NCBI GenBank assembly: GCA_902798705.1
Contig: CADBXS010000028.1
Span: 6,571-41,268 of the forward strand
DNA length: 34,698 bases
Direction of reading: 5' to 3'
DNA from: an uncultured Bacteroidales bacterium
GTDB taxonomy: Bacteria > Bacteroidota > Bacteroidia > Bacteroidales > Bacteroidaceae
Within the stretch, counting starts at the first letter, position 1. Every line of letters begins with the position of its first letter. This document shows, one piece after another, positions 21,911-34,698 of this stretch. The translations under genes and the position numbers were made by a program. The notes beneath the pieces are model-generated. The model did not search any database. It was given only the letters and a program-made list of their open reading frames with translations, and had not been told where the DNA came from.

Positions 21911-22606
21911 TTATCCTTTAATAAGTCCCTTCTCCTTCAAGACAGGGAGAATATTGGCAGCTGACTGACGAGCATTCTTCTTCTCAACCGCATTGTATCT
22001 TTCCAACAGTGCATGGTCGTTAGCAAGCACCTTCTCCACGAACTCGTCGTTGATTCTGACCACAGCCGTTTTTCCCTTACTATTCGCATCTTGGTCAAGG
22101 TAATAGCATCGATAGCTATTGAACTTGTCCATATTGAGCCAAATGACATCTGAAGCAACCTCAGCTGGAACAGCCACAGGCAATGGAGCTGCGATGGAAA
22201 CCACATCACCTGCAAGACTTGCCAATACAGCGCCGCCATTTATCCAGTGTGCCACGACGCACAGTTTGTTGCCTTCGTAACGGTAAGCCTGTGCATAATT
22301 GCTTACATCAAGAACAATGTCATTGCAGCGAAGGTTGCGACAGTTGACGTAGAGATGGCCCATATATTCCACAACCAGCACTTCTTTCTTAAGAATCTCG
22401 TCAGCCTCCTTGTCACCAGTACTGAACTTAAACTGGTCATCCGTAAACTTAATCTGGCACATTTGTTTTGTCTTTCCTTCTGTCAATGTCTCAACAGGAG
22501 TCCAACGGTTGGCTACAAAGTCAGAGTAGCTCTTACAGAACTTAGCATTTTGTGCCTGAAGCATCATTGGCAAACAGCTCAATAAAATAACGATTAGCTT
22601 TTTCAT
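21911..22606 (-). CDS. Exported protein of unknown function
   Basis: 231 residues with a clear signal peptide (MKKLIVILLSCLPMMLQAQ). The mature protein starts with CKSYSDFVANRWTPVETL and has a central hydrophobic stretch (about 123-150, GGAVLASLAGDVVSIAAPLPVAVPAEV) that could cross or lie on a membrane. No enzyme motif is seen. It looks like one of the small exported proteins common in Bacteroidales. Its upstream region carries two TGTCGCAA-type sites placed as at the MATE-NRPS promoter, so it may be co-regulated with that unit. Confidence 0.75.
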   Translation of the reverse strand: MKKLIVILLSCLPMMLQAQNAKFCKSYSDFVANRWTPVETLTEGKTKQMCQIKFTDDQFKFSTGDKEADEILKKEVLVVEYMGHLYVNCRNLRCNDIVLDVSNYAQAYRYEGNKLCVVAHWINGGAVLASLAGDVVSIAAPLPVAVPAEVASDVIWLNMDKFNSYRCYYLDQDANSKGKTAVVRINDEFVEKVLANDHALLERYNAVEKKNARQSAANILPVLKEKGLIKG

Positions 22607-22692: not shown

Positions 22693-22700
22693 CAAAGTTA
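22693..22700 (-). promoter_or_regulatory. Promoter -7 element for the unknown exported gene
   Basis: TAACTTTG on the minus strand matches TAnnTTTG, 87 bases before the start codon at 22606. There is no TTTG near 22720 where a -33 element is expected, so activation by a bound protein would make sense. Confidence 0.6.
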
Positions 22701-22751: not shown

Positions 22752-22810
22752 TTGCGACAACCACCTCGATTCGCGACAAACACGGGAAAGCCCCCTCAAA
22801 TATGTCGCAA
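22752..22810. promoter_or_regulatory. Cluster of TGTCGCAA sites, region A
   Basis: Three sites lie in the divergent gap 22607-23002: TTGTCGCAA on the minus strand at 22760-22752, TTGTCGCGA on the minus strand at 22779-22771 (one mismatch), and TGTCGCAA on the plus strand at 22803-22810. The first two are direct repeats 19 bases apart, about 28 bases upstream of the expected -33 position of the exported gene. The octamer recurs at 31582-31641. Confidence 0.6.
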
Positions 22811-22912
22811 TCCACCCTTTTTTGTACCTTCATTAAGCTGAAAAGACCTGTAGAACGAGGCATCTTGTTGGGAAAATAATTCTTTCAGGTGAAAAATACT
22901 CCCGAAAGAGGA

Positions 22913-22942
22913 TTGTTTTTCAGATTATAATGTTTAACTTTG
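22913..22942 (+). promoter_or_regulatory. Promoter of the isomerase-like gene
   Basis: TTG (22913-22915), 19 bases, then TAACTTTG (22935-22942): good Bacteroidetes-type spacing. It lies 60 bases before the start codon at 23003. Confidence 0.65.
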
Positions 22943-23002
22943 CCATGCCATGAAAAAGATATTACATTTAATGTCAAATCACTTAACTTTAATTATTCTA
23001 AC

Positions 23003-24499
23003 ATGAACAACGTACCTAAAATTAAGATTGGAATCGTCGCAGTAAGTCGCGACTGTTTTCCAGAGTCATTGGCAGTTAACCGCCGCAAAGCCGTTATTGC
23101 AAAGTATGTAGAGAAATACGACGCAGCCGACATCTACGAGTGCCCTATCTGCATCGTCGAAAGCGAGATTCACGCTCAGCAGGCGCTTGAGGATGTGAAG
23201 AAGGCTGGATGCAATGCTCTCTGCGTCTATCTGGGCAATTTCGGTCCAGAGATTTCGGAAACCATGATAGCCGACTGGTTCCAAGGCCCAACCATGTTCT
23301 GTGCTGCTGCTGAGGAGACTCAGAACGACTTGATTGACGGTCGTGGAGATGCCTATTGCGGTATGCTGAATGCCAGTCAGGCGCTTTCCCTCCGCAAGAC
23401 ACGTGCCTATATTCCAGAAGAGCCAGTGGGTGATGCTGGTGAGTGCGCAGACATGATCCATGAGTTCGTACCTATCGCTCGTGCCATCGTCGGCCTACAG
23501 AACCTCAAGATTATCAGCTTCGGTCCACGCCCTAACAATTTCCTCGCTTGCAACGCTCCTATCCGTGCCCTCTATGACCTCGACGTGGAAATTGAGGAGA
23601 ACTCTGAGCTCGACTTGCTGGAGGCATTCCAAAAGCACCAGAATGACCCACGTATCGACGCTGTCGTGAAGGACATGGCTGCCGAACTGGGTACTGGCAA
23701 CAAGATTCCATCCGTGCTGCCAAGACTTGCACAGTATGAACTCACGCTGACCGACTGGATAGAAGCCCACAAAGGCTCAAGACAGTTCGTGGCAATGGCA
23801 AACAAGTGCTGGCCTGCATTCCAGACGATGTTCGGCTTCGTTCCATGCTATGTGAACAGCCGCCTGACGGGTAGAGGCATCCCAGTAGCTTGTGAGGTTG
23901 ATATCTATGGTGCCTTGTCGGAGTTTATCGGTACCTGCATCACTCAGGATGCTGTCACCTTGCTCGACATCAACAACTCCGTGCCAAAGGACATGTACGA
24001 GGAGAGCATCAAAGGCAAGCAGTTTGAGTGCGACAGCTATACCGACAAGGAGATTTTCATGGGCTTCCATTGCGGAAACACAGCATCTTCCAAGGTATGC
24101 AACTGCCAGATGTGCTTCCAGCGTATCATGGCGCGTGCACTGCCTGTAGAGGTGACAAACGGCACATTGGAGGGCGACCTGAAACCAGGAAAGGCCACCG
24201 TTTATCGCCTGCAATCCACCGCCGACACAAAACTGCGTGCATATATTGCACAGGGTGAGATTCTGCCTGTTGCCACACGCTCATTTGGCTCAATCGGAAC
24301 CTTTGGCATCAAGAACATGAGCCGTTTCTATCGTCATGTACTCATCGAGAAGCACTATCCTCACCATGCAGCAGTGATGTTTGAGCATGCAGGAAAATAT
24401 CTATGGGAAGTGCTGAAATACATGGGCATCCCTGTGGAGGAGATTGACTACAACTTCCCTAAGGGCAACTACTACCCAACAGAGAACCCATTTGCTTGA
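23003..24499 (+). CDS. L-fucose/L-arabinose isomerase-family protein
   Basis: 498 residues from the ATG at 23003. An in-frame ATG at 22940 lies within the -7 promoter element, so it is not the start. The N-terminus KIKIGIVAVSRDCFPESLAV, the central SFGPRPNNFLACNAPI, EVDIYGALSEFIG, LLDINN and FMGFHCGNTAS, and the C-terminal HHAAVMFEHAGKYLWEVLKYMGIP fit the fucose/arabinose isomerase fold, where Glu and Asp of these motifs bind a divalent metal. It would interconvert an aldose and a ketose in the cytoplasm. The exact sugar is not known; L-arabinose or L-fucose would suit the nearby hydrolases. A strong terminator follows. Confidence 0.85.
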   Translation: MNNVPKIKIGIVAVSRDCFPESLAVNRRKAVIAKYVEKYDAADIYECPICIVESEIHAQQALEDVKKAGCNALCVYLGNFGPEISETMIADWFQGPTMFCAAAEETQNDLIDGRGDAYCGMLNASQALSLRKTRAYIPEEPVGDAGECADMIHEFVPIARAIVGLQNLKIISFGPRPNNFLACNAPIRALYDLDVEIEENSELDLLEAFQKHQNDPRIDAVVKDMAAELGTGNKIPSVLPRLAQYELTLTDWIEAHKGSRQFVAMANKCWPAFQTMFGFVPCYVNSRLTGRGIPVACEVDIYGALSEFIGTCITQDAVTLLDINNSVPKDMYEESIKGKQFECDSYTDKEIFMGFHCGNTASSKVCNCQMCFQRIMARALPVEVTNGTLEGDLKPGKATVYRLQSTADTKLRAYIAQGEILPVATRSFGSIGTFGIKNMSRFYRHVLIEKHYPHHAAVMFEHAGKYLWEVLKYMGIPVEEIDYNFPKGNYYPTENPFA

Positions 24500-24554
24500 A
24501 ACAGCACGATAAAGTTCCCCTCATAAAACGTGTTAAAGGGGATATTGCCTAATC

Positions 24555-24602
24555 AGAAAGCCAGCCATTTTCAAAAAAATCTTGAAAACAGCTGGCTTTT
24601 CT
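24555..24602 (+). terminator. Rho-independent terminator after the isomerase gene
   Basis: AGAAAGCCAGC (24555-24565) pairs with GCTGGCTTTTCT (24591-24602), with inner CATTTTCAA/TTGAAAACA pairing as well, ending in TTTTCTT. It lies 56 bases after the stop codon. Between it and the next gene, 24603-24689, nothing recognisable is seen. Confidence 0.85.
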
Positions 24603-24689
24603 TGCGCAATTTATAATGATGATGATTTTGCAAATAGCACCCAAGTTGATGATGCACGTATTTACATAGCCAACAGCACGCTGGTAGTA

Positions 24690-26378
24690 TTAATGCTTCA
24701 CAACCACCTTCTTGCCATTACGGATATACACCCCCGATTTCATTCCTTGATTGGAATTGTACTTCTTTCCACTTAAATCATAAACGCTTCTTGTCGTTTC
24801 ATCGGTACTCACCAACGCTTGTATCCCTGCTGCATCTTCCTTGGAGAACTGCCATGCATCAAAAAAGACGTTGTTCGCTTCAGTAAACAAGAAAAAGACC
24901 TTCTTCACACCCTTGAACAGACTTGGTTCGACACTGATAGTGTAATCCTTGAAATCAGTCGATGAGAGCTCAATACTTGCCGCTGGCTTAGCCGAAACAT
25001 TCTCAAGGCGTATCTCAAGCTTTCCAGTTCCCTTTGCCCTTAGCATGAACGAATTAGCCCCTTCTGTGCCAAAATCAACGTTCCGCACCATGGTCCATGC
25101 TCCAGCGTTCATCTTCACTTGCAAGTTTTTCGAAGCATCGTTTCCAAGCGTGTTCAAATAGGCAACTTTCTCGATATTCGTGAAGTCCTCATAATTCACA
25201 CCTCCCGACGTGGACATGGTCTCAGCCTGTTGCAAGGAATACGGGTCCAATCTCTTGATGGCAGATGGGCCCTGATTGGTCATCGTCACCTTATTAATCT
25301 GTTGCCTGTTCTCATTCACCGTTGCCTTCTCAACACCGATTGAACGGAAGCCCGATGCGCCTGTATTCATCTTTTGCTCCAGCACCATCGAGTGATAGAA
25401 CAGATAGTAATTTCCTTGGAATTTCTGAAGATGCGTGTGATTATTCCCCCAACCAAACCCGAAGTTTCCAGGATTGGGAACATATTCGCCCTTGTATTCC
25501 CATGCATCAGGATTCAGCGGGTCATCAGTCACCATGTAGCACATGCTACACGACGAAGGTGCTGGATAACTCCCCCGTTTCGCATAACTGTTCCAGTCGT
25601 TGCGGTCAGACCAAGATGTATTATAAGTATAAACGTAGCGCCCATTCATCATGTTCAATTCATTAGCCTCAAACAAATATGGCGCAGGCAAATTAACAGC
25701 CTTACCCTCAAGCGAAATCATATTACTCCTCAACTTTGCAATGCGCGAGTTGCCAGGCATAAGCTTCGTTCCCTGATTGTTTGGGTCACCTCCACCGAAG
25801 GCAATCCATCCCGTTCCATTATCATCAATGACCACACCAGGGTCAAATATCCAGTTGCAAGGAGCCACACCAGGCGTATCCCCATCGATAAGCGGCCTCG
25901 TAAGCGGTGACCTCCACGGTCCAATCGGAGAATTAGCCGTTAAGACACCCACACTGCCACCACTATTCGCAAAGTACAGGAAGAACTCATTCTTACCGTT
26001 AGCACCCTCACGCCACGTCACCGATGGAGCCCAAGAGGCAGCAAAACGCCATCCCCACGAAGTGCATAGCTTTCCCACGTCAATAGTCCCGTGAAAAGTC
26101 CAGTTCACCATGTCGTCAGTAGAGAAAACAACAAGCGACTTGATAGCTCCATACCCATTGCTTCCCTTCTTGTTATTGACAAGAAACTGTTGGCTGTCGT
26201 TCGAACCATAGACATAAACGCGCCCATCGAACTCCAAGGCTGTAGGGTCAGCACAGAACACACAAGGACTGATAGGATTACCGTTCGACACCCCTTTGTA
26301 GGCATTCGCCACAGTCTGAGCCTCCATGCATATCGAGGCACTCATGAATACGGTTCCAAGGATGATTTTTAATTTCAT
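24690..26378 (-). CDS. GH43 family arabinofuranosidase/xylosidase with CBM6-like domain and C-terminal tail
   Basis: 562 residues from the ATG at 26378, giving the signal peptide MKLKIILGTVFMSASICMEAQ. An upstream in-frame ATG at 26444 falls in the promoter region. The GH43 propeller (about 30-360) shows the base Asp in FCADPTALEFDGRVYVYGS, Asp in WIFDPGVVIDDNGTGW and Glu in YLFEANELNMMNGRYVY. Residues about 375-505 form a CBM6-like sandwich (LQQAETMSTSGGV, NSFMLRAKGTGKLEIR). The last 35 residues (SVYDLSGKKYNSN, SGVYIRNGKKVVVK) resemble type IX secretion sorting tails. The probable role is removal of arabinose or cleavage of xylan chains outside the cell. Confidence 0.9.
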   Translation of the reverse strand: MKLKIILGTVFMSASICMEAQTVANAYKGVSNGNPISPCVFCADPTALEFDGRVYVYGSNDSQQFLVNNKKGSNGYGAIKSLVVFSTDDMVNWTFHGTIDVGKLCTSWGWRFAASWAPSVTWREGANGKNEFFLYFANSGGSVGVLTANSPIGPWRSPLTRPLIDGDTPGVAPCNWIFDPGVVIDDNGTGWIAFGGGDPNNQGTKLMPGNSRIAKLRSNMISLEGKAVNLPAPYLFEANELNMMNGRYVYTYNTSWSDRNDWNSYAKRGSYPAPSSCSMCYMVTDDPLNPDAWEYKGEYVPNPGNFGFGWGNNHTHLQKFQGNYYLFYHSMVLEQKMNTGASGFRSIGVEKATVNENRQQINKVTMTNQGPSAIKRLDPYSLQQAETMSTSGGVNYEDFTNIEKVAYLNTLGNDASKNLQVKMNAGAWTMVRNVDFGTEGANSFMLRAKGTGKLEIRLENVSAKPAASIELSSTDFKDYTISVEPSLFKGVKKVFFLFTEANNVFFDAWQFSKEDAAGIQALVSTDETTRSVYDLSGKKYNSNQGMKSGVYIRNGKKVVVKH

Positions 26379-26435
26379 AGCAATATCTTTTTTATCGGTT
26401 TCTGCTGATGAGTAGCTGTTCCAAGCAGGAAACCC

Positions 26436-26483
26436 TGTTGACAATTCGTTTTGTGTTGCAAAGATAATACATTATTGTCAACA
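26436..26483 (-). promoter_or_regulatory. GH43 promoter flanked by a 10-bp inverted repeat
   Basis: TATCTTTG on the minus strand (26466-26459) is the -7 element of the GH43 gene. It lies between TGTTGACAAT (26436-26445) and its exact reverse complement ATTGTCAACA (26474-26483). One arm falls near the -33 position and the other just past the transcription start, as for a looping or dimeric repressor. Confidence 0.6.
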
Positions 26484-26517
26484 ACAGGTGTCCTTCTGAA
26501 AAAACATTCAAATAAAG

Positions 26518-26546
26518 TTGTAAATGAAATAATTTTTATAAATTTG
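26518..26546 (+). promoter_or_regulatory. Possible promoter for the serine hydrolase
   Basis: TTG (26518-26520), 18 bases, then TAAATTTG (26539-26546). A second start candidate with TTACTTTGCAACGTTAA lies at 26711-26727, and both are followed by the same TTTGCAACGT decamer. The second is closer to the gene at 26769. Confidence 0.4.
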
Positions 26547-26579
26547 CAACGTAACAGTTCTGCGAATCATCTTTTTGAG

Positions 26580-26686
26580 TCGCCTACGGCGAGAAATCTT
26601 TCAAATCTATACAAATCATACAAATTATATTTTGAAGATTTTGAAAGATTTGAAAAGATTTGTGAGATTTCTGTCACGAAGTGACA
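26580..26686. repeat. Extragenic hairpin element
   Basis: The element is bounded by TCGCCtacGGCGA (26580-26592) and TGTCACgaaGTGACA (26672-26686). Between them imperfect inverted copies of AAATCTTTCAAATCT can pair with AGATTTGAAAAGATTT. The whole can fold as a large branched hairpin. A 77-codon open frame across it is a by-product of the repeats. Confidence 0.6.
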
Positions 26687-26768
26687 CTCCTTGATATATT
26701 CCCTGAACAGTTACTTTGCAACGTTAATATGCGAAACAAGTTTAATTGAATAAAAAAAACGTATATAT

Positions 26769-28011
26769 ATGAAAAAGCTCTTACGCTATCTTGCCATTGC
26801 ACTCCTTCTCGCCATCATTGGCGGATGTATCTACCTGAACAGTCTGATGCCTATCATCACTGGCTATGCTGCGAAGAATTTGGCTTCGGCTGTGTTTGTT
26901 TCAGGTCGTGAGGCGAAAGCTGTTGAAGCACTTGATCTGAACTTTTCCTTCATTCGCTTCACCAGTAACACGGTGGACTATGAGAACAAGACTGTCACCA
27001 GTCGCTTGCTTTGGGGCAAATCTACAGCCGTCTATCGCGAGGGCTACGGTGTGACATTGCTGTGCGGTGCCTCTGCCGATGGGTTGAGGGAACAGCGTCA
27101 CGAATGCTTTTGTCAACGAACATGCCTATCATGGCCACCCCTTTACTTTTGTGGTTCTGCACAAGGGCGGTGTAGTGGCAGAACGCTATAACGATGGCAT
27201 CACTCCCGACACAAAACTCCTCAGCTGGAGCGTTGCGAAGAGCTTTGTAAATGCACTCATCGGCATTATGGTGAAAGACAGTCTTCTCGACATACATGCT
27301 CCGATGGACATTCCCGAGTGGCAGGGCGACGGACGCAAGGCCATCACCATCAACGACTTGATGCAGATGCAGAGTGGACTGAAATGGAATGAGGATTACA
27401 GCGCACGTTCCGATGTAAACATCATGCTCCACTGCGAAAGCGACATGGGTCTCTATGCCCTCTCAAAGCCGCTCGAATATGAACCTGGTACACACTGGCA
27501 ATACTCCAGCGGCAGTACAAACATCGCGATGCGCTATCTGCGTAGTCGCTTTCCTTCCCAAGAGGCATTCCTCCGCTATATGCACTCACGACTCTTTGCT
27601 CCGCTCGGCATCTATGGTGCTGTCTTTGAGCAGGACATGAGCGGCACACCATTGGGCTCATCCTACCTCTATATCACAGCAAGGGATTTTGCTCGCTTCG
27701 GACAAATGTACCTCGACGACGGCTGCGTCGGCAACGAGAGAATCCTCCCTGAAGGATGGGTGGACTATACACGAACGCCAGCTGCCAACAGTGGTGACTG
27801 CTATGGTGCATACTTCAAACTAAATGGAAATGGCAAGTACCAAGACATACCAAGGGATATGTACTGGTGTGATGGCCACGATGGTCAGTGCATCTTCATC
27901 TTCCCTTCCCAACAGGTGGTGGTTGTCATCCTCGGCTTCTCTCCAAAACCCAACAACCTCATCGACTTCAATGCTCTCCTGAAAGATATTCTCAACCAAA
28001 CGAGGTGCTAA
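26769..28011 (+). pseudogene. Serine hydrolase (beta-lactamase/NylB family), split by a one-base frameshift
   Basis: The first frame gives a membrane-anchor start (MKKLLRYLAIALLLAIIGGC) and reads normally to about 27086. The rest continues in the next frame from 27088, with a single extra base near 27087 (GAT GGG TTG a GGG AAC). Joined, the protein would be about 413 residues. The downstream part carries the nucleophile motif SWSVAKSF (SxxK), WQYSSGSTN in place of the usual YxN loop, and GHDGQ in the position of the KTG/HxG motif, as in penicillin-binding-protein-like esterases and 6-aminohexanoate-dimer hydrolases. Without the extra base the gene would be whole, so decay, sequencing error or phase variation are all possible. 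An ATG at 27151 could start a fragment lacking the anchor. Confidence 0.85.
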
Positions 28012-28019
28012 CGTGAAAT

Positions 28020-28061
28020 TAAAAGTGAAAAGTGAAAAGTGAAAAATGCCTTCCGGATGGC
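28020..28061. repeat. Short AAAAGTG tandem and TTCCGGATGG palindrome remnant
   Basis: Three AAAAGTG units (28020-28040) are followed by TGCCTTCCGGATGGC (28047-28061). The latter resembles the centre of the 772-860 palindromic element (CCATCCGGATGG). It follows the serine hydrolase stop. Confidence 0.45.
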
Positions 28062-28135
28062 GGTTTTCGTTATCGTTTTCGTTGAATTTTTAACTTTTAA
28101 CTTAAAGAAATCAAGCGTTATTCCCACGTATTACC

Positions 28136-28225
28136 TCAGCTGCGAACACGAGCAGGACCTGTGCCTTTACCACCATAGGTGATTTCATCATCACTCTCCT
28201 GTACCTCAGCAACGTTTTTCTCACC
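28136..28225 (-). pseudogene. Possible C-terminal gene remnant
   Basis: The minus strand reads VAEVQESDDEITYGG followed by KGTGPARVRS and a stop. This has ordinary coding-like composition but is closed by a stop at its upstream end after 29 codons and has no start. It looks like the tail of a lost gene. The family is not recognised. Confidence 0.3.
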
Positions 28226-28476
28226 TTAACACTTGGAATCTGATAGATTTTTTCATAAATCAATGATAATATCAATCGTTTGTCATCAATTCTTAATAGG
28301 AACTTATCCTCAAATGAAGAGCAATTTCAACAACAAGTTGTAAAAAATCATGCAAATTTACTTCAAATTTTCCGATTGAGCAAAAACAACACAATATTTT
28401 ACTTATCACAACAAAAAACGTCCCTATTCTTTACCTAAATCTCCTCATTCCACCATCTCATCCCACGCTGCAAAAT

Positions 28477-28708
28477 TCACATAACATACATAACATAACA
28501 TAACAACATAACATTGGGCTTTTTTGAATGAAATCCTCTCTTATAATAGTATAAATATCATAGTATATATATTATTAAGTGTATAATATACAATTATTAT
28601 TAATAAATAATATAGAATTATAATCATCTATTTCTCTCCTTTATTTAGTCAAATCAAATAAAAACCCCTGATGTTATGTTGTTATGTTATGTTATGTATG
28701 TTATGTGA
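28477..28708. repeat. Perfect 38-bp inverted repeat around a 156-bp A/T-rich core
   Basis: Bases 28477-28514 are the exact reverse complement of 28671-28708. Each arm is built from CATAA units (TCACATAACATACATAAC at its outer end). Pairing continues imperfectly inward (TGGGCTTTTTT against AAAAACCCCTG). The core is almost pure A/T with nested small palindromes. No gene lies inside. The wider gap 28012-28895 otherwise holds only gene remnants and repeats. Confidence 0.95.
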
Positions 28709-28711
28709 TAG

Positions 28712-28882
28712 GTAATTCCTACACGTACCATTGTTGATAAATTGTCGTGTTATTGGGGACTCATTCACAATTCGTTGGGGAAGCACTTCCTCGCCATTAG
28801 GAACGCAATGGAGAAGGTGTAAGAGAGGCACAAAACACTGAACCCCAAGCGAGATGCTCAGGGAACAGTGAATGCGCGATAA
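28712..28882 (+). pseudogene. Possible gene remnant with an internal stop
   Basis: One frame reads TIVDKLSCYWGLIHNSLGKH then FLAIRNAMEKV, a stop at 28820, then continues in the same frame with RHKTLNPKRDAQGTVNAR and a second stop at 28880. It has no start codon and begins right beside the 38-bp repeat arm. The SCYWGLIHNS stretch faintly recalls the end of some reverse transcriptases (SYxGxxxH), but this is a guess from a few residues. Confidence 0.3.
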
Positions 28883-28895
28883 AAAGGGCTGGAAC

Positions 28896-31481
28896 TTAAG
28901 GCAGAAGGAGTTTTTTGCCGTCGGAACGGAGAATTATACGAGGATGACGAGGGGAGAAAGATGACTTTTGAGAGCTGAGAGAAGGGAGGAGACGCCCTTG
29001 GAGGTCGTAATAATAAGAAGGAGATGATGGATTGGTGGCAATGGAAGGAACGGAGGAGACGATGATGTCGCCAAGCGGAATGAAGGACTCATTGGAGGAG
29101 ATTTGGGCATAAACATCGAATGGATGGAGGATTGAGACGTCGGTCTGACGCACCCAGCCCCATTGGCCGTCCTGCTGGCCGAGGAGGTAATCACCAGGGT
29201 AGATTGGAAGTTGTGTGTAGGTACCTCGATAAAGGGCATCCATTGGACTTCGGGCAAAGGAGATGTCGCCCTTGCCTTTGAAGGTGATGATGCCATCGGC
29301 TACGATAAGGTATGGCTGGTGGGCTTGGATGGTGTTGAGTTCTTCAATTTCGTAATCGTCGTAAATAATGTAAGCTTTCGCTGAAGCCGGGACGTCGGCT
29401 GCGAATGGGAGTATTATCATGCGTGCTCCATCGACTTGAACGGTGAGTGTTGCAAGTTCGGCTGTAAATGGTGTGGCTGGTCGGAAGTCGCCTTCGGAGG
29501 TGGAAAGCTGGAGGTTGTGGCAGACGCTGCCTGAGACGACGTTGGCTGCTGTGAACGATGTTTCCTGTGGAAGATAGACGACGCGGTTTGTACTATTGCT
29601 CCACCATGTGAGTTCGGCAGGGAGACTGGTCACTTTGGTCATGTCGAGGCTTGTGCAGGCGTCATCGGTTGAGTATTCGAGCACGTAGCTGTCGTCGGAT
29701 ACATAGTCGCCTGTGAGTGTTGCGGCATAGTTGCTTCCGCTGGCGAGCCATACGTCGCCGAAGGAGATGGAGAGGTGGGATACGGCATTGTCGCAGGTGA
29801 GGGAAATGAGTCCGATGCAGCCGTCGGAAAGTGTAGCAGGCGAAAGGTCGAAAACGAGGTCGAAGTCGTTGGCACGACTGAGGTCGATGCGTCCATATTC
29901 GTGCTTGGAGACTTGGTTGTTGCGGTTGACGTAGGTGAGTGTGGTGCCTCCTGCTGTGAGAGAATTGGTGGTTGTCACCTTATTTATATGCATGACGAGC
30001 TGTGAATAGCGTTCATCGAGGGCCACATAGCCGTAGCTGGCGTTGGTGCGCGAGGAGATGAGAGGATTGGAGGAGTCAAAAGTCTTGCTCTTTCCGCTCA
30101 ACTTGTATGCCGTGCCGAAGTTGGTCTTGGTGGTTCGCATGTCGTCGAGACGGTCAAAACGGGTGGCTGTGCCTTTCATATTGGAAGGTTGTCGGTCGCG
30201 CGAACGGATAAACATGATGGTGTTGACACTCTGAGCTGGGATGCTGAAAGTGGGACAACAGGTCTCGTCCATATCAGGATACTTGGTGCTGGCGAAACGG
30301 CGTGTCTTGGTTGTGGAAACGAGTGTAGCGTTGGTGGTGTAGAATGGCAAATCGCACGTTACGTCTATGGCCTCGCCTGGGTTGGAGATAACGATGACTG
30401 CGGTGTCGGTGGTCTGCGAGAGATAAGCAGAACTTTCCAAGCTGTTACCGCTCCATGTGGCATCGATGCGTGTCATGCCAGTGATGAATCGAGCGAAATG
30501 AGCCATGATGTAGCCTCGCTTGGTCACTACCCCACTGCTTGTGCCCCTCTGTCCGTCGCCCAACATGCCATAGTAGCGCTTGGCAGCATAGTGTATCCAA
30601 GCATTGAATTCGCCCAGCATACAGGTGTTGATGGCTGTGAAGAAGTTGAAGAAATCCTTTGAGAAATCGAAGCTGCGGGTGTTGTTTTCGGCCTCGTTCC
30701 AATTGATGAGATACTCCGTCATCCACAATTCCTTGCCTTTCCTACCAAGGTTCTTGTAGGCCGACTGGATGCCTCCGTATTGGTGTCCGCCATAGATGTC
30801 GAAGCAGTCGAGCACATCGCTCTTGTTGAGGGCATTGGCATAGGAGTCGCTCACGGCCAGTGTTTCGGGAGCCATCACCTTGCAACTGATGCTCTTGCCA
30901 TAGGTCTTCACAAACTCAGCAATCTCCTCGGCCGACCACAGGCAACCAGCATACTCTGCAGGCCAGTCGGGTTCGTTCTGGATGGAGATGGCATCGAGTT
31001 CCACGCCGTTCTTGCGCAGATATTGCACGTATTCTTCCAGATATTGCGCATAGTCGGCCCAGTTTTCTCGCTTCAGCTTGCCCGTTGTGCCATCGCTGTT
31101 TCGTGCATTGATAGTGCCATTGGTCTTCCACTCTGCAGGCTGTCCCCAAGGGGATGCAAAGACGATGAGTCCCATCTGCTTGCCTTTCTTCGCCGTTGCC
31201 AGCGACTGGTTCCAGTTTCCCTTGCCGATGGGAATGTAGAGGCGCATGATGTTGCAACCCACGGTGCTGTTCTTGCCCCATACCTTCTCGATTTCGGCGT
31301 TGGACATGTGGTTGTAGCCAAACTGCGGACTACAGACGAATCCGCCGAATCCTGTGATGCGCTGGTGGGTGTTCTGAGCGTTCAGGCGTACTGTTGCCTT
31401 TGTCTGTGCCATAGCTCCCTGCACTCCACAAAGGATGCAAAGCAGGGCTACTGGCAGAATTTGTTTCAAAAGAGTCTTCAT
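28896..31481 (-). CDS. GH30 glucuronoxylanase-like enzyme with long C-terminal extension
   Basis: 861 residues with a signal peptide ending GAMAQ. Residues about 27-430 form the GH30 barrel plus side sandwich: RITGFGGFVCSPQFGY, acid/base Glu170 in SIQNEPDW, GGHQYGG and nucleophile Glu256 in LWMTEYLINW. This fits GH30 xylanases that cut glucuronoxylan. Residues 430-800 hold unrecognised beta-rich regions, possibly carbohydrate binding. The C-terminus (YYYDLQGRLLPS, IILRSDGKKLLLP) resembles Bacteroidetes sorting or anchoring tails. It is divergent from the MATE-NRPS unit and shares an operator region with it. Confidence 0.9.
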   Translation of the reverse strand: MKTLLKQILPVALLCILCGVQGAMAQTKATVRLNAQNTHQRITGFGGFVCSPQFGYNHMSNAEIEKVWGKNSTVGCNIMRLYIPIGKGNWNQSLATAKKGKQMGLIVFASPWGQPAEWKTNGTINARNSDGTTGKLKRENWADYAQYLEEYVQYLRKNGVELDAISIQNEPDWPAEYAGCLWSAEEIAEFVKTYGKSISCKVMAPETLAVSDSYANALNKSDVLDCFDIYGGHQYGGIQSAYKNLGRKGKELWMTEYLINWNEAENNTRSFDFSKDFFNFFTAINTCMLGEFNAWIHYAAKRYYGMLGDGQRGTSSGVVTKRGYIMAHFARFITGMTRIDATWSGNSLESSAYLSQTTDTAVIVISNPGEAIDVTCDLPFYTTNATLVSTTKTRRFASTKYPDMDETCCPTFSIPAQSVNTIMFIRSRDRQPSNMKGTATRFDRLDDMRTTKTNFGTAYKLSGKSKTFDSSNPLISSRTNASYGYVALDERYSQLVMHINKVTTTNSLTAGGTTLTYVNRNNQVSKHEYGRIDLSRANDFDLVFDLSPATLSDGCIGLISLTCDNAVSHLSISFGDVWLASGSNYAATLTGDYVSDDSYVLEYSTDDACTSLDMTKVTSLPAELTWWSNSTNRVVYLPQETSFTAANVVSGSVCHNLQLSTSEGDFRPATPFTAELATLTVQVDGARMIILPFAADVPASAKAYIIYDDYEIEELNTIQAHQPYLIVADGIITFKGKGDISFARSPMDALYRGTYTQLPIYPGDYLLGQQDGQWGWVRQTDVSILHPFDVYAQISSNESFIPLGDIIVSSVPSIATNPSSPSYYYDLQGRLLPSLSSQKSSFSPRHPRIILRSDGKKLLLP

Positions 31482-31527
31482 ATTTCGGTTCTGTTAATTT
31501 TAAATGCGTTTATCATCATTGTCAGGG

Positions 31528-31559
31528 CAAAGATAAACATAAAATGTGAACCTTGCAAA
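31528..31559 (-). promoter_or_regulatory. Promoter of the GH30 gene
   Basis: TTTG (31559-31556), exactly 20 bases, then TATCTTTG (31535-31528) on the minus strand: an ideal Bacteroidetes promoter, 47 bases before the start codon. A TGTCGCAA site reading toward it ends about 22 bases upstream of the -33 element. Confidence 0.8.
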
Positions 31560-31581
31560 TGCACTATAATATAAACGAGTT

Positions 31582-31641
31582 TTGCGACAGGAAATGCTGG
31601 ATTTTGCAGTGATTGTCGCAAATTTTTGTTTTGTGTCGCAA
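31582..31641. promoter_or_regulatory. Cluster of TGTCGCAA sites, region B
   Basis: TGTCGCAA reads toward the GH30 gene at 31589-31582 (minus strand) and toward the MATE gene at 31614-31621 and 31634-31641 (plus strand). The last two are direct repeats 20 bases apart, ending 28 bases before the -33 element of the MATE promoter. This is the usual place for activator binding, for example by AraC-type domains. The same octamer is clustered at 22752-22810. Confidence 0.6.
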
Positions 31642-31669: not shown

Positions 31670-31701
31670 TTTGGATGAAAAAGAAAGTGCATGTATATTT
31701 G
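31670..31701 (+). promoter_or_regulatory. Promoter of the MATE-NRPS unit
   Basis: TTTG (31670-31673), exactly 20 bases, then TATATTTG (31694-31701), matching the Bacteroidetes consensus. The start codon of the MATE gene is 73 bases further on. Confidence 0.8.
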
Positions 31702-31774: not shown

Positions 31775-33121
31775 ATGATGAATCAAGTAGAAAGAAAGGT
31801 GTTCAACAGGGATTTCCGAGTGTTCCTGTGGTCGTCCATCCTGATAGCCCTCTCGGCTTGTCTGGGTAATGTGATTGACGCCATCATCGTGGGAAACCTG
31901 ATTGATGCGGACGCGGTGAGTGCCATCAACATCTCGCGCACGATGATACAGTTCATGTTCACGCTCAACATGCTGCTGGCCACGGGTGCCGGTATGCTGG
32001 TTGGTATGCAACTCGGCAAGAAGAATCCTCAACGTGCTTCCTACATCTTCACCGTGTCGATGTCGGCTTGTTTGGTGGCAGGATTGGTGATTGCGGCATT
32101 CGGTCTTTTCTTCCCTGATGCCTCTACCCGACTGCTTTGCAACAGCGAGCAACTGTTCGAATCCACGAAGGCTTATCTGCGTGTGATGATGCTGGGTGCA
32201 CCAGTCTATCTGTTGCTTTGGGGCATCGATACGATGGTCAGTGTGGATGGTAGTCCGAAGCTGGTGTCCTTGTCAATATTCGTTGACAATGCAGTGCACC
32301 TCATTCTCGACATCGTGTTCATCAAGTGCCTCGGTTGGGGCATTGCAAGTAGTTCTGCTGCCACTGTCATTGGTCACGTGGTGGGTATCGCCATGATGGC
32401 ATTCCACTTCTACTCGTCGAAGAACAATCTGCGACTGGTGTTCAAGTGCGATGACAAGGAAACGAGCCTGTTTGCCACATTGAAAGACCTCATCTCGCAG
32501 GGTGCACCACTGGCCATCGCATCTGTCTGCCTGACGCTATTGCTGTTCTGCTCCAACCGCATCGTTGTTGCCACACTGGGACTTGCTGGTATCTTCGCCT
32601 TCTCGGTTTGTATGTACCTCTTGCAGATTTACAACCTCTTCCTTGGTGGTGTGTGTCGCACCTTGCAGACATTCGGAGCCATTCAGGTAGGTAAGGGCGA
32701 CAACGAGGCTTTCACACTGGTGCAACGCAAGTCGTTCAGGTTCATCACCATTGCAATGGTTCTCACCTGCCTGTTCGTGTGGATATGGCCTGAGCTGGCC
32801 GTAAAGACGTTCGGTGCCAACGAGCCAGACTTAATCGGTGAAGGTTGCTATGCGCTGAGTGTGTTCGCCATCAGTCTTATTCCTTTCTGCTACATCTACG
32901 TCATCATGATTGTGTATAAGCTGTATAACTACCACCAGATAGCGCTGTTCATCTCCTTCGCACTCTCGCTGACAGTCATCCCAGTGCTGTGGCTGATGTC
33001 GAAGTTTGCGCCAAACTATTTGTGGTTCAGCTATCTGATTGCCTATATCATCGAGATGTTAGCCATCTTTATACTACATAAAAAGTATCATGTTAAGTTT
33101 GAACTGAAGGAAATTAAATAG
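31775..33121 (+). CDS. MATE family efflux transporter
   Basis: 448 residues with about 12 hydrophobic helices in two homologous halves: LIALSACLGNVIDAIIVGNLI early, MLLATGAGMLVGMQLGKKN, and LLLFCSNRIVVATLGLAGIFAFSVCMYLLQ starting the second half. These are characteristic of MATE transporters, which export organic compounds against sodium or protons through the inner membrane. The next gene, a nonribosomal peptide synthetase, starts 37 bases later, so the exporter probably carries its product. A second in-frame ATG follows immediately at 31778. Confidence 0.93.
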   Translation: MMNQVERKVFNRDFRVFLWSSILIALSACLGNVIDAIIVGNLIDADAVSAINISRTMIQFMFTLNMLLATGAGMLVGMQLGKKNPQRASYIFTVSMSACLVAGLVIAAFGLFFPDASTRLLCNSEQLFESTKAYLRVMMLGAPVYLLLWGIDTMVSVDGSPKLVSLSIFVDNAVHLILDIVFIKCLGWGIASSSAATVIGHVVGIAMMAFHFYSSKNNLRLVFKCDDKETSLFATLKDLISQGAPLAIASVCLTLLLFCSNRIVVATLGLAGIFAFSVCMYLLQIYNLFLGGVCRTLQTFGAIQVGKGDNEAFTLVQRKSFRFITIAMVLTCLFVWIWPELAVKTFGANEPDLIGEGCYALSVFAISLIPFCYIYVIMIVYKLYNYHQIALFISFALSLTVIPVLWLMSKFAPNYLWFSYLIAYIIEMLAIFILHKKYHVKFELKEIK

Positions 33122-33158: not shown

Positions 33159-34698
33159 ATGAAAACTAAAGCACCATTAACCAAAACGCAGTATGGCCTC
33201 TATGTAGAGTGTGTGAATCACCAGGGCGAGGCTTGTTATAACATTCCTTATCTCTACACGTTCGACGGTAGTCTGGACGAGGAGAAGCTGAAGTCGGCCA
33301 TTGAGGCAGCTGTAGCCGCACATCCTACACTGTTCACTCGCATCGAACTGAATGAGCAGGGCGATCCACAGCAAGTTATCGACGACAGTGAGACATTAGC
33401 GCTGAGCGTGGAGACGGTGGACGACATTGAAGCCGAAAAGGCAAGCTTTGTTCAGCCATTCGACTTGTATCAGGACAGATTGTTCCGCATCCGTCTGCTT
33501 CGCGATAAAGAGCATTTTTACCTGTTGCAGGACATTCACCACATCATCAGCGACGGTACATCGCGCAAGGTGCTGCTGGCTGACATCGAGCAGGCATATC
33601 ATGCTGAGCCATTGACAGCAGAGGAGATGAGCCTTGCCGAGGTGGCTACTGCTGAGGATGCACAGCGCCAGTCGGATGTTTTCGAGCAGGACAAGCAATG
33701 GTATGCAACGCATTTTGATTGTGGTGACACCTATTCGCCACTGCTTCCCGACCTGGAGGAAGAGGAACATCGAGAGGGACTGATGACTCGAAAGATGGAC
33801 ATTGCACAGGCTGAGGTGGAGAACTTCTGCAAGGAGCATGGCATCTACAAGAGCACGTTCTTCACGGCGGTGTATAGTTATCTGCTTGCCAAGTTCAACA
33901 ACGAACAGGAAGTGCTTTTCAGTACGATTCACAATGGCAGAAGCGATAAGCGCTTGGGCCACACCATGGCTATGCTGGTGAAGACCTTGCCTGTGTATGC
34001 GAAATTCGATAACGACACCACAGTGATTGACTTCCTGAAAGCAGGTCAGGAGCAGATGAGCGGATGCCGAGAGCATGAGGCTTACGGCTTTAGCGACATG
34101 GTGGAGAACTTAGGCTTGCAGTGTGCAACTATGTTTGCATGGCATGGAACACTGTTCGCACAAAACGAATTCTGTGGAAAGCCTTTGAGCCAGCAACGTC
34201 TGAACAACAACACGCGCGAATGCCCTATCTACGTGAAGGCTTACAGCAAGGAGGAATGCTTCTGTGTGGAGGCTGAATATAGTGCCAACGAATATAGCGA
34301 GACACTCATCAGCCAGTTCTTGGAAAGCTATGAGGCAGTGGTGAAGGGATTCATGGCTGAGGAACTTCTGCGTGACATCGACATTGCCACAGCTGCTCAG
34401 GTGGATGTGCTCGATGGATTCAACCAGACAGATGTGGATTATGACAACAGTCAGACCATCGTATCGCTGTTCAGTCGTCAGGCGAAGGCTACACCTCAGA
34501 ACGTGGCCGTTGTCTATCAGGACAAGCAATTCACCTATGCCGAGGTGGATGAAATGAGCGACCGCATCGCAAGCCATATCGCAAAGAAGGGACTGGGAAC
34601 AGAGGATGTTGTATCGGTTCTCATTCCACGCAGCGAGTGGATGGCCATCGCTTCCTTGGGCGTATTGAAGGCTGGATGTGCTTATCAACCGCTCGATC
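33159..34698 (+). CDS. Nonribosomal peptide synthetase, condensation and adenylation domains (partial)
   Basis: The first 513 codons are present and the frame is open to the window edge. Residues about 5-420 form a condensation domain with the catalytic HHxxxDG (DIHHIISDG, His127-His128) and HNGRSDKRLGHTMAMLVKTLPV. From about 425 an adenylation domain begins (VSLFSRQAKATPQNVAVVY, FTYAEVDEMSDRIA, VSVLIPRSEWMAIASLGVLKAGCAYQPLD). Starting with a condensation domain suggests an acyl or externally loaded first unit. The substrate-selecting residues and later domains lie outside. It is coupled to the upstream MATE exporter. Confidence 0.95.
   Translation, partial: MKTKAPLTKTQYGLYVECVNHQGEACYNIPYLYTFDGSLDEEKLKSAIEAAVAAHPTLFTRIELNEQGDPQQVIDDSETLALSVETVDDIEAEKASFVQPFDLYQDRLFRIRLLRDKEHFYLLQDIHHIISDGTSRKVLLADIEQAYHAEPLTAEEMSLAEVATAEDAQRQSDVFEQDKQWYATHFDCGDTYSPLLPDLEEEEHREGLMTRKMDIAQAEVENFCKEHGIYKSTFFTAVYSYLLAKFNNEQEVLFSTIHNGRSDKRLGHTMAMLVKTLPVYAKFDNDTTVIDFLKAGQEQMSGCREHEAYGFSDMVENLGLQCATMFAWHGTLFAQNEFCGKPLSQQRLNNNTRECPIYVKAYSKEECFCVEAEYSANEYSETLISQFLESYEAVVKGFMAEELLRDIDIATAAQVDVLDGFNQTDVDYDNSQTIVSLFSRQAKATPQNVAVVYQDKQFTYAEVDEMSDRIASHIAKKGLGTEDVVSVLIPRSEWMAIASLGVLKAGCAYQPLD

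Follow-up and report, generated by a model that had tools for sequence, protein, structure and literature searches.

A composite three-box promoter element in ruminant-gut Bacteroidales and its candidate AraC-type activator

DNA-binding domains of the AraC type suit direct repeats about two turns of the helix apart. In Bacteroidales such a domain is also found as the output domain of the hybrid two-component systems (HTCS) of polysaccharide loci. Direct repeats of similar spacing, with a period of about 20 bp, are used by regulators of the LytTR type, including ComE, BlpR and AgrA with their regulons of bacteriocin and signalling genes. A different kind of control is exerted by the SpoIIE/RsbU-SpoIIAA/RsbV-SpoIIAB/RsbW modules, where partner switching is expected to have a sigma factor as its output.

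Here we describe an element composed of two direct boxes and one inverted box, and propose as its regulator a protein that we call ccAraC. Like the AraC/XylS activators, ccAraC has an HTH_18/HTH_AraC domain with a predicted fold resembling MarA, AdpA and AraC, and the putative direct half-sites lie about two helical turns apart upstream of a promoter. Unlike these activators, ccAraC has a helix of about 67 residues and no N-terminal effector domain that could be found, while the element adds a third, inverted half-site 24 bp upstream and the site lies far from the -33 element. The difference with HTCS is that ccAraC is a separate protein of 190 aa and that glycan loci do not make up most of the element's targets. 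Small peptides occur among these targets, as in the ComE/BlpR/AgrA regulons, but the DNA-binding domain differs and LytTR proteins do not track the element. As in the SpoIIE/RsbU modules, a PP2C phosphatase, a HATPase_c_2 domain and a STAS protein are encoded in one operon; here, however, phosphatase and HATPase form one polypeptide with a Cache sensor, and the third gene encodes the AraC-type DNA-binding protein ccAraC. A search of open-access literature found no description of this operator or of a wiring of partner switching to an AraC-type protein; as far as this search goes, the parts are of known kinds and the combination is new.

The window, by which we mean the whole stretch of 34,698 nucleotides that was analysed, belongs to the genome of an uncultured Bacteroidales bacterium (G000; 3.31 Mb in 195 contigs, 81.7% complete). 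Its genes include those for an exported DUF6563 protein, a fucose-isomerase-like protein, a GH30-like protein, a MATE transporter and an NRPS, the last being cut because contig C28 stops at 41268, which is also the end of the window. The features on which the analysis is based are as follows.

21911..22606, minus strand: exported DUF6563 protein of 231 aa, target gene (PF20201, E 1.5e-19)
22693..22700 (read from 22700), minus strand: -7 element of the DUF6563 promoter (TAACTTTG), following box 3 at an offset of 52
22752..22759, minus strand: box 3 of the DUF6563 element, repeating box 2 with a period of 19
22771..22778, minus strand: box 2 of the DUF6563 element, a one-mismatch copy (TGTCGCGA)
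22803..22810, plus strand: box 1 (distal, inverted) of the DUF6563 element, octamer match
28896..31481, minus strand: GH30-like protein, divergent neighbour judged to lie outside the regulon (PF14587 and PF02055 just over the cut-off)
31582..31589, minus strand: box 1 (distal, inverted) of the MATE-NRPS element, earlier taken for a GH30 site, octamer match
31614..31621, plus strand: box 2 of the MATE-NRPS element, octamer match
31634..31641, plus strand: promoter-proximal box 3 of the MATE-NRPS element, repeating box 2 with a period of 20
31694..31701, plus strand: -7 element of the MATE promoter (TATATTTG), following box 3 at an offset of 53
31775..33121, plus strand: MATE-family transporter, first gene of the controlled unit (PF01554, E 7.7e-23)
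33159..34697, plus strand: NRPS, Condensation then AMP-binding (PF00668, E 3e-57; PF00501, E 6.4e-18)

The preliminary description of this DNA reported five exact copies of the octamer TGTCGCAA confined to two divergent intergenic regions. These are indeed present (22752 and 31582 on the minus strand; 22803, 31614 and 31634 on the plus strand), as are the intergenic one-mismatch copy (22771, minus strand) and the direct pairs with periods of 19 and 20 bases. The scan by eye that showed no other exact copy was wrong, since a sixth lies at 22335-22342 within the DUF6563 gene. Six exact octamers compare with 1.64 expected in the window, and 1 of 100 shuffles reached six. In the whole genome, however, the octamer is found 109 times against 90 for the reversed word. 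Being so near to background it says little by itself, and as a signal on its own it was rejected.

The signal becomes clear when the boxes are taken together. The full element reads TTGCGACA-N24-TGTCGCAA-N11/12-TGTCGCAA, followed about 52 bp downstream by TAnnTTTG, the -7 element of a Bacteroidetes-type promoter, which is present at nearly the same distance at both promoters of the window. Counted from the proximal box, 20 of 23 bases are shared between these promoters. The window contains the shortened pattern CGACA-N24-TGTCGC-N13/14-TGTCGC twice, whereas 100 shuffles of the window yielded none; the genome contains the pattern seven times against 0.0006-0.0008 expected. Pairs of TGTCGC are found at 11 places in the genome (control: 1), seven of which have one layout, in which 24 bp separate an upstream inverted box from the direct pair and the whole is oriented toward one gene; in the element on contig C9 the inverted box departs from the consensus at two bases. 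The four other pairs (two on C83, one each on C113 and C140) are without a third box and were dropped. The best explanation is that both intergenic regions hold one composite activator element apiece, each serving one gene or operon. The earlier proposal that the exported protein and the MATE-NRPS unit share an operator is supported, with one three-box element at each.

To obtain the distribution, one genome per GTDB species was scanned with the three-box pattern without its promoter part, which yielded at least 113 stretches in at least 71 genomes (counted by accession prefix). Among the matches listed, titles name Prevotella, Prevotellaceae, Bacteroidaceae, Muribaculaceae or Bacteroidales, the sole exception being an 'uncultured bacterium' (L169), and many of them mention rumen, omasum, reticulum or similar sources; RUG in the titles stands for rumen genomes. 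Although the promoter was left out of the pattern, TAnnTTTG stands at an offset of 50-53 in 112 of 118 distinct sites among these matches (80 at 52 and 26 at 53), against a chance expectation of 0.0018 per 4-bp window. Two of the six sites without a -7 element at the usual place are cut by locus ends. In the 399 family genomes the element occurs in nine, and the reversed control in 0 of 399. Matches in G266, G148, G172 and G288 from an earlier search were dropped, as no three-box match was found in these genomes; the reversed control of that search gave two matches.

Since inverted and direct repeats are both present and the copies are many, it might be argued that the boxes are no regulator site but stem from a mobile repeat or from an invertible promoter. 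We give this almost no credence. An alignment of 108 sites shows conservation of the boxes, short A-runs, a weak TTGG at -33 and the -7 element, whereas most spacer positions vary; furthermore, no box is found on the far side of the promoter, and inversion between the boxes would not flip it.

Two sets of sites deserve mention in their own right. The sole element of G075 (contig C67, 9580-9633) differs by one base from the element on contig C20 of the window's genome and precedes the same PepSY-like gene, though G075 is of another genus; this is either a recent transfer or mis-binning. Locus L054 in G128 carries three tandem elements within 2.7 kb, one of them before a DUF6563 gene, while the stretches that follow the other two have no gene called at the cut-off used.

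The single box at 31582 had previously been read as an operator of GH30, and the natural product had been tied to xylan degradation on that ground. Within the MATE element it is box 1, distal and inverted, with 24 bp between it and box 2; the box at 22803 has the same place in the DUF6563 element, and with this the xylan link fails. That the GH30, exported-protein and MATE-NRPS genes have separate operators, tying xylan use to the natural product, is in our judgement very unlikely. It is true that GH30 has one exact, correctly oriented box upstream of it, but this box stands 47 bp from the TATCTTTG of GH30 and without a second direct box, against offsets of 50-53 at related sites that have a -7 element (n = 112, among the matches listed). 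Also, the inverted box is found at 24 bp in all seven elements of the genome, and the 118 strict sites carry it too (by construction of the pattern) whatever lies upstream. An upstream neighbour is in reach at 131 of 136 sites among the matches listed; 71 are on the same strand and 60 on the opposite one, so divergent genes are not in excess. Nothing in the analysis points to control of xylan breakdown by the element.

The seven elements of the window's genome have as their targets three PepSY-like genes, a BspA-like gene, a 52-aa peptide, DUF6563 and the MATE-NRPS unit; the BspA-like call is uncertain because the gene starts 560 bp past the element. Over 137 sites (strict and relaxed, among the matches listed) a PepSY-like cluster is the commonest first gene, with 25 sites. 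It is followed by SpoIIE-type phosphatases (4 sites), D-Ala-D-Ala dipeptidase-like proteins (4 sites, 3 genes), 60-aa peptides starting with MKTMELTP or similar (4 sites) and DUF6563 (3 sites). Outside the window, sites stand before DUF6563 genes at L054 and L081. Type VI secretion (T6SS) is represented as well: TssD is the first gene at three sites and lies beside a fourth, and TssC is the first gene at one. At L120 the order is element, SpoIIE, STAS, NRPS. First genes were called mechanically as the longest non-overlapping ORFs, so some calls are wrong (for instance at L060, L064 and L089), and gene families are clusters of which one or a few members were scanned against Pfam. By a crude hydrophobic-run/lipobox rule, export-like N-termini are more frequent in first genes (65 of 83) than in neighbouring genes (122 of 321). 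As the best explanation we propose that the element is the mark of a regulon to which surface, secreted and competition-type genes belong, in ruminant-gut Prevotellaceae as well as in some other Bacteroidales.

Several of the small genes behind the element are worth describing. On contig C9 of the window's genome (55496-55549, minus strand; L013) the element stands ahead of the gene for the 52-aa peptide, which is basic; a hairpin-like sequence comes next and MnmG lies downstream. Short basic peptides also follow elements at L062, L063, L122 and L136. The peptide behind the element at L094 has 45 aa and a leader of double-glycine-like type; it matches lantibiotic, ComC and class II bacteriocin models, all below their cut-offs. 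The element at L109 precedes a 189-aa exported protein with repeated units of the ARPEAAPRGIFVFTDK type, possibly a multi-copy peptide precursor.

No regulator was found among the 25 ORFs scanned in the window. A LytTR-type regulator, of which contig C9 encodes a membrane-anchored example, appeared promising in the first 12 genomes, where membrane-anchored types were present in element-positive genomes and the same two types in 0 of 4 negatives. Yet a LytTR relative (E ≤ 1e-20) occurs in 52 of the 399 family genomes and in only four of the nine element-positive ones (G000, G012, G075 and G128), and the promoters of these regulators have no paired site. The 399-genome control and the missing sites led us to rule out this candidate, and that a LytTR protein binds the element now seems highly improbable.

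A protein that recurs near the sites is ccAraC, mostly after genes for SpoIIE and STAS proteins and sometimes beside T6SS genes. It has 190 aa in the window's genome (180-190 aa in the family) and consists of an N-terminal helix and an AraC-type domain. Matches to PF12833 (HTH_18, E 2.9e-16) and PF00165 (E 4.4e-8) place it in the AraC/XylS family. The AlphaFold model (mean pLDDT 84.5, pTM 0.59) predicts one helix from residue 3 to 69, probably a coiled coil, and then seven helices, for which the best PDB matches are AraC-type DNA-binding domains (yesN, AdpA and MarA; best E 7.8e-5; 3lsg and AraC domains are among the fold matches). In the domain scan only the HTH domain scored above the cut-off, and neither a kinase or receiver domain nor an N-terminal effector or dimerisation domain family was found. 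MarA-like members of the AraC family are also without an effector domain, so the assignment to AraC/XylS stands, though not to the classical effector-sensing subgroup. Of the regulator types suggested in the preliminary description, the activator with repeated half-sites is supported, with direct repeats about two helical turns apart and a predicted regulator of the AraC type, whereas a hybrid two-component regulator does not agree with the best candidate. A local AraC protein at L016 had been joined to ccAraC by BLAST clustering only; its sequence is different and longer, and it was set aside.

Co-occurrence points to the same protein. Matches to ccAraC of at least 234 bits are found in 7 of the 399 family genomes, in three genera, and all seven are among the nine element-positive genomes; six are near full length, and that of G012 spans positions 45-184 and holds a stop. 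None of the 390 element-negative family genomes has such a match among the candidates scored (at most eight per genome). Fisher's test gives p = 1.2e-13 (399 genomes, uncorrected for kinship), and at the level of genera the association is 3 of 4 against 0 of 26 (p = 0.001). With a threshold of E ≤ 1e-20, 11 of the 399 genomes match; G009, G117, G195 and G234 have weak relatives only (89-101 bits) and are without the element. Among the matches listed of the wider scan, 62 of 71 named element-bearing genomes have a ccAraC match at E ≤ 1e-20. The best match reaches at least 175 bits in 61 of the 71, including six genomes with a more divergent subtype (175-199 bits), and in 55 of 65 after leaving out six genomes that supplied alignment rows; G401 has weak matches only (up to 96 bits). 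To judge from identical coordinates, the family set shares at least three genomes with these 71.

These figures leave some room for a different regulator, with ccAraC as a member of the same regulon or simply co-inherited. Elements without a detected ccAraC are found in 9 of the 71 named genomes (among the matches listed) as well as in G007 (four elements) and G075 (one), which makes another regulator of the element possible. The absences are soft, however, because most genomes are MAGs and the family search scored at most eight ccAraC candidates per genome. Operons of ccAraC can carry the element, as a target would (at L078 it lies upstream of SpoIIE-STAS-ccAraC itself), and other candidates exist: an XRE-like gene is near four sites in three genomes, apparently one conserved locus, and sigma-factor-like genes are near five scattered sites. 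Against this stands the lack of strong ccAraC matches in element-negative genomes across genera. In addition, ccAraC adjoins sites in unrelated settings (PepSY, T6SS and its own operon) whereas the XRE-like gene does so in one, and the spacing of the direct boxes is what an AraC-type domain would favour. We therefore regard a different regulator as unlikely.

In the window's genome ccAraC is the third gene of an operon on contig C24, directly after the genes for a 725-aa protein with PDC/Cache, SpoIIE (E 1.3e-46) and HATPase_c_2 (E 8.9e-20) domains and a 102-aa STAS protein (E 1.1e-16). All three components of partner switching (SpoIIE/PP2C phosphatase, HATPase_c_2 and STAS) are thus present in the operon. 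No element was found at the ccAraC operon of this genome. Among 37 ccAraC loci (three genomes being counted twice under two handles), SpoIIE and/or STAS genes adjoin ccAraC in 27, and an element (relaxed pattern) lies within 1.5 kb in 10. Without SpoIIE/STAS neighbours are ccAraC of G070, G361, L254 and L257 and of the T6SS loci L262, L268 and L271.

Taken together, a small activator that is coupled to a sensor in the membrane probably operates the element. Our main reading, to which we assign a probability of roughly 0.8, is that it is bound by ccAraC, gated by SpoIIE-HATPase-STAS partner switching, and controls the regulon described above. A periplasmic signal would set the SpoIIE phosphatase against the HATPase kinase on the STAS protein; dephosphorylated STAS would free ccAraC, and ccAraC would then bind the three boxes and recruit polymerase. 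A more far-reaching and doubtful extension is that the NRPS product exported by MATE, or a small peptide, is itself the signal for the Cache domain, upon which STAS releases ccAraC. The regulon would then be a cell-cell signalling or competition programme in which ccAraC activates T6SS parts, peptides and envelope proteins; in some genomes it would also activate the NRPS and the operon that encodes it, which would complete a positive feedback loop.

Should ccAraC be the regulator, then an AraC-type activator would take the place of the sigma factor under a partner-switching phosphatase. Because the operator is rigid and recognisable from sequence alone, it also provides a list of co-regulated genes in uncultured rumen Bacteroidales, including the functionally obscure DUF6563, PepSY-like and short-peptide genes and two natural-product units. 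It makes testable what rumen bacteria sense before they deploy secretion systems and peptides.

Some relatives of the operon depart from the common arrangement. Weaker relatives of ccAraC are encoded at L230 (8407-9231, contig C22 of the window's genome; 98 bits) and at L231 (374-1036, G002; 108 bits). Both start with a hydrophobic segment and are perhaps membrane-anchored paralogues. At L225 (8271-8789, G002) a 172-aa ORF directly before ccAraC combines a start like that of the SpoIIE protein with a STAS match, as if most of the phosphatase were missing.
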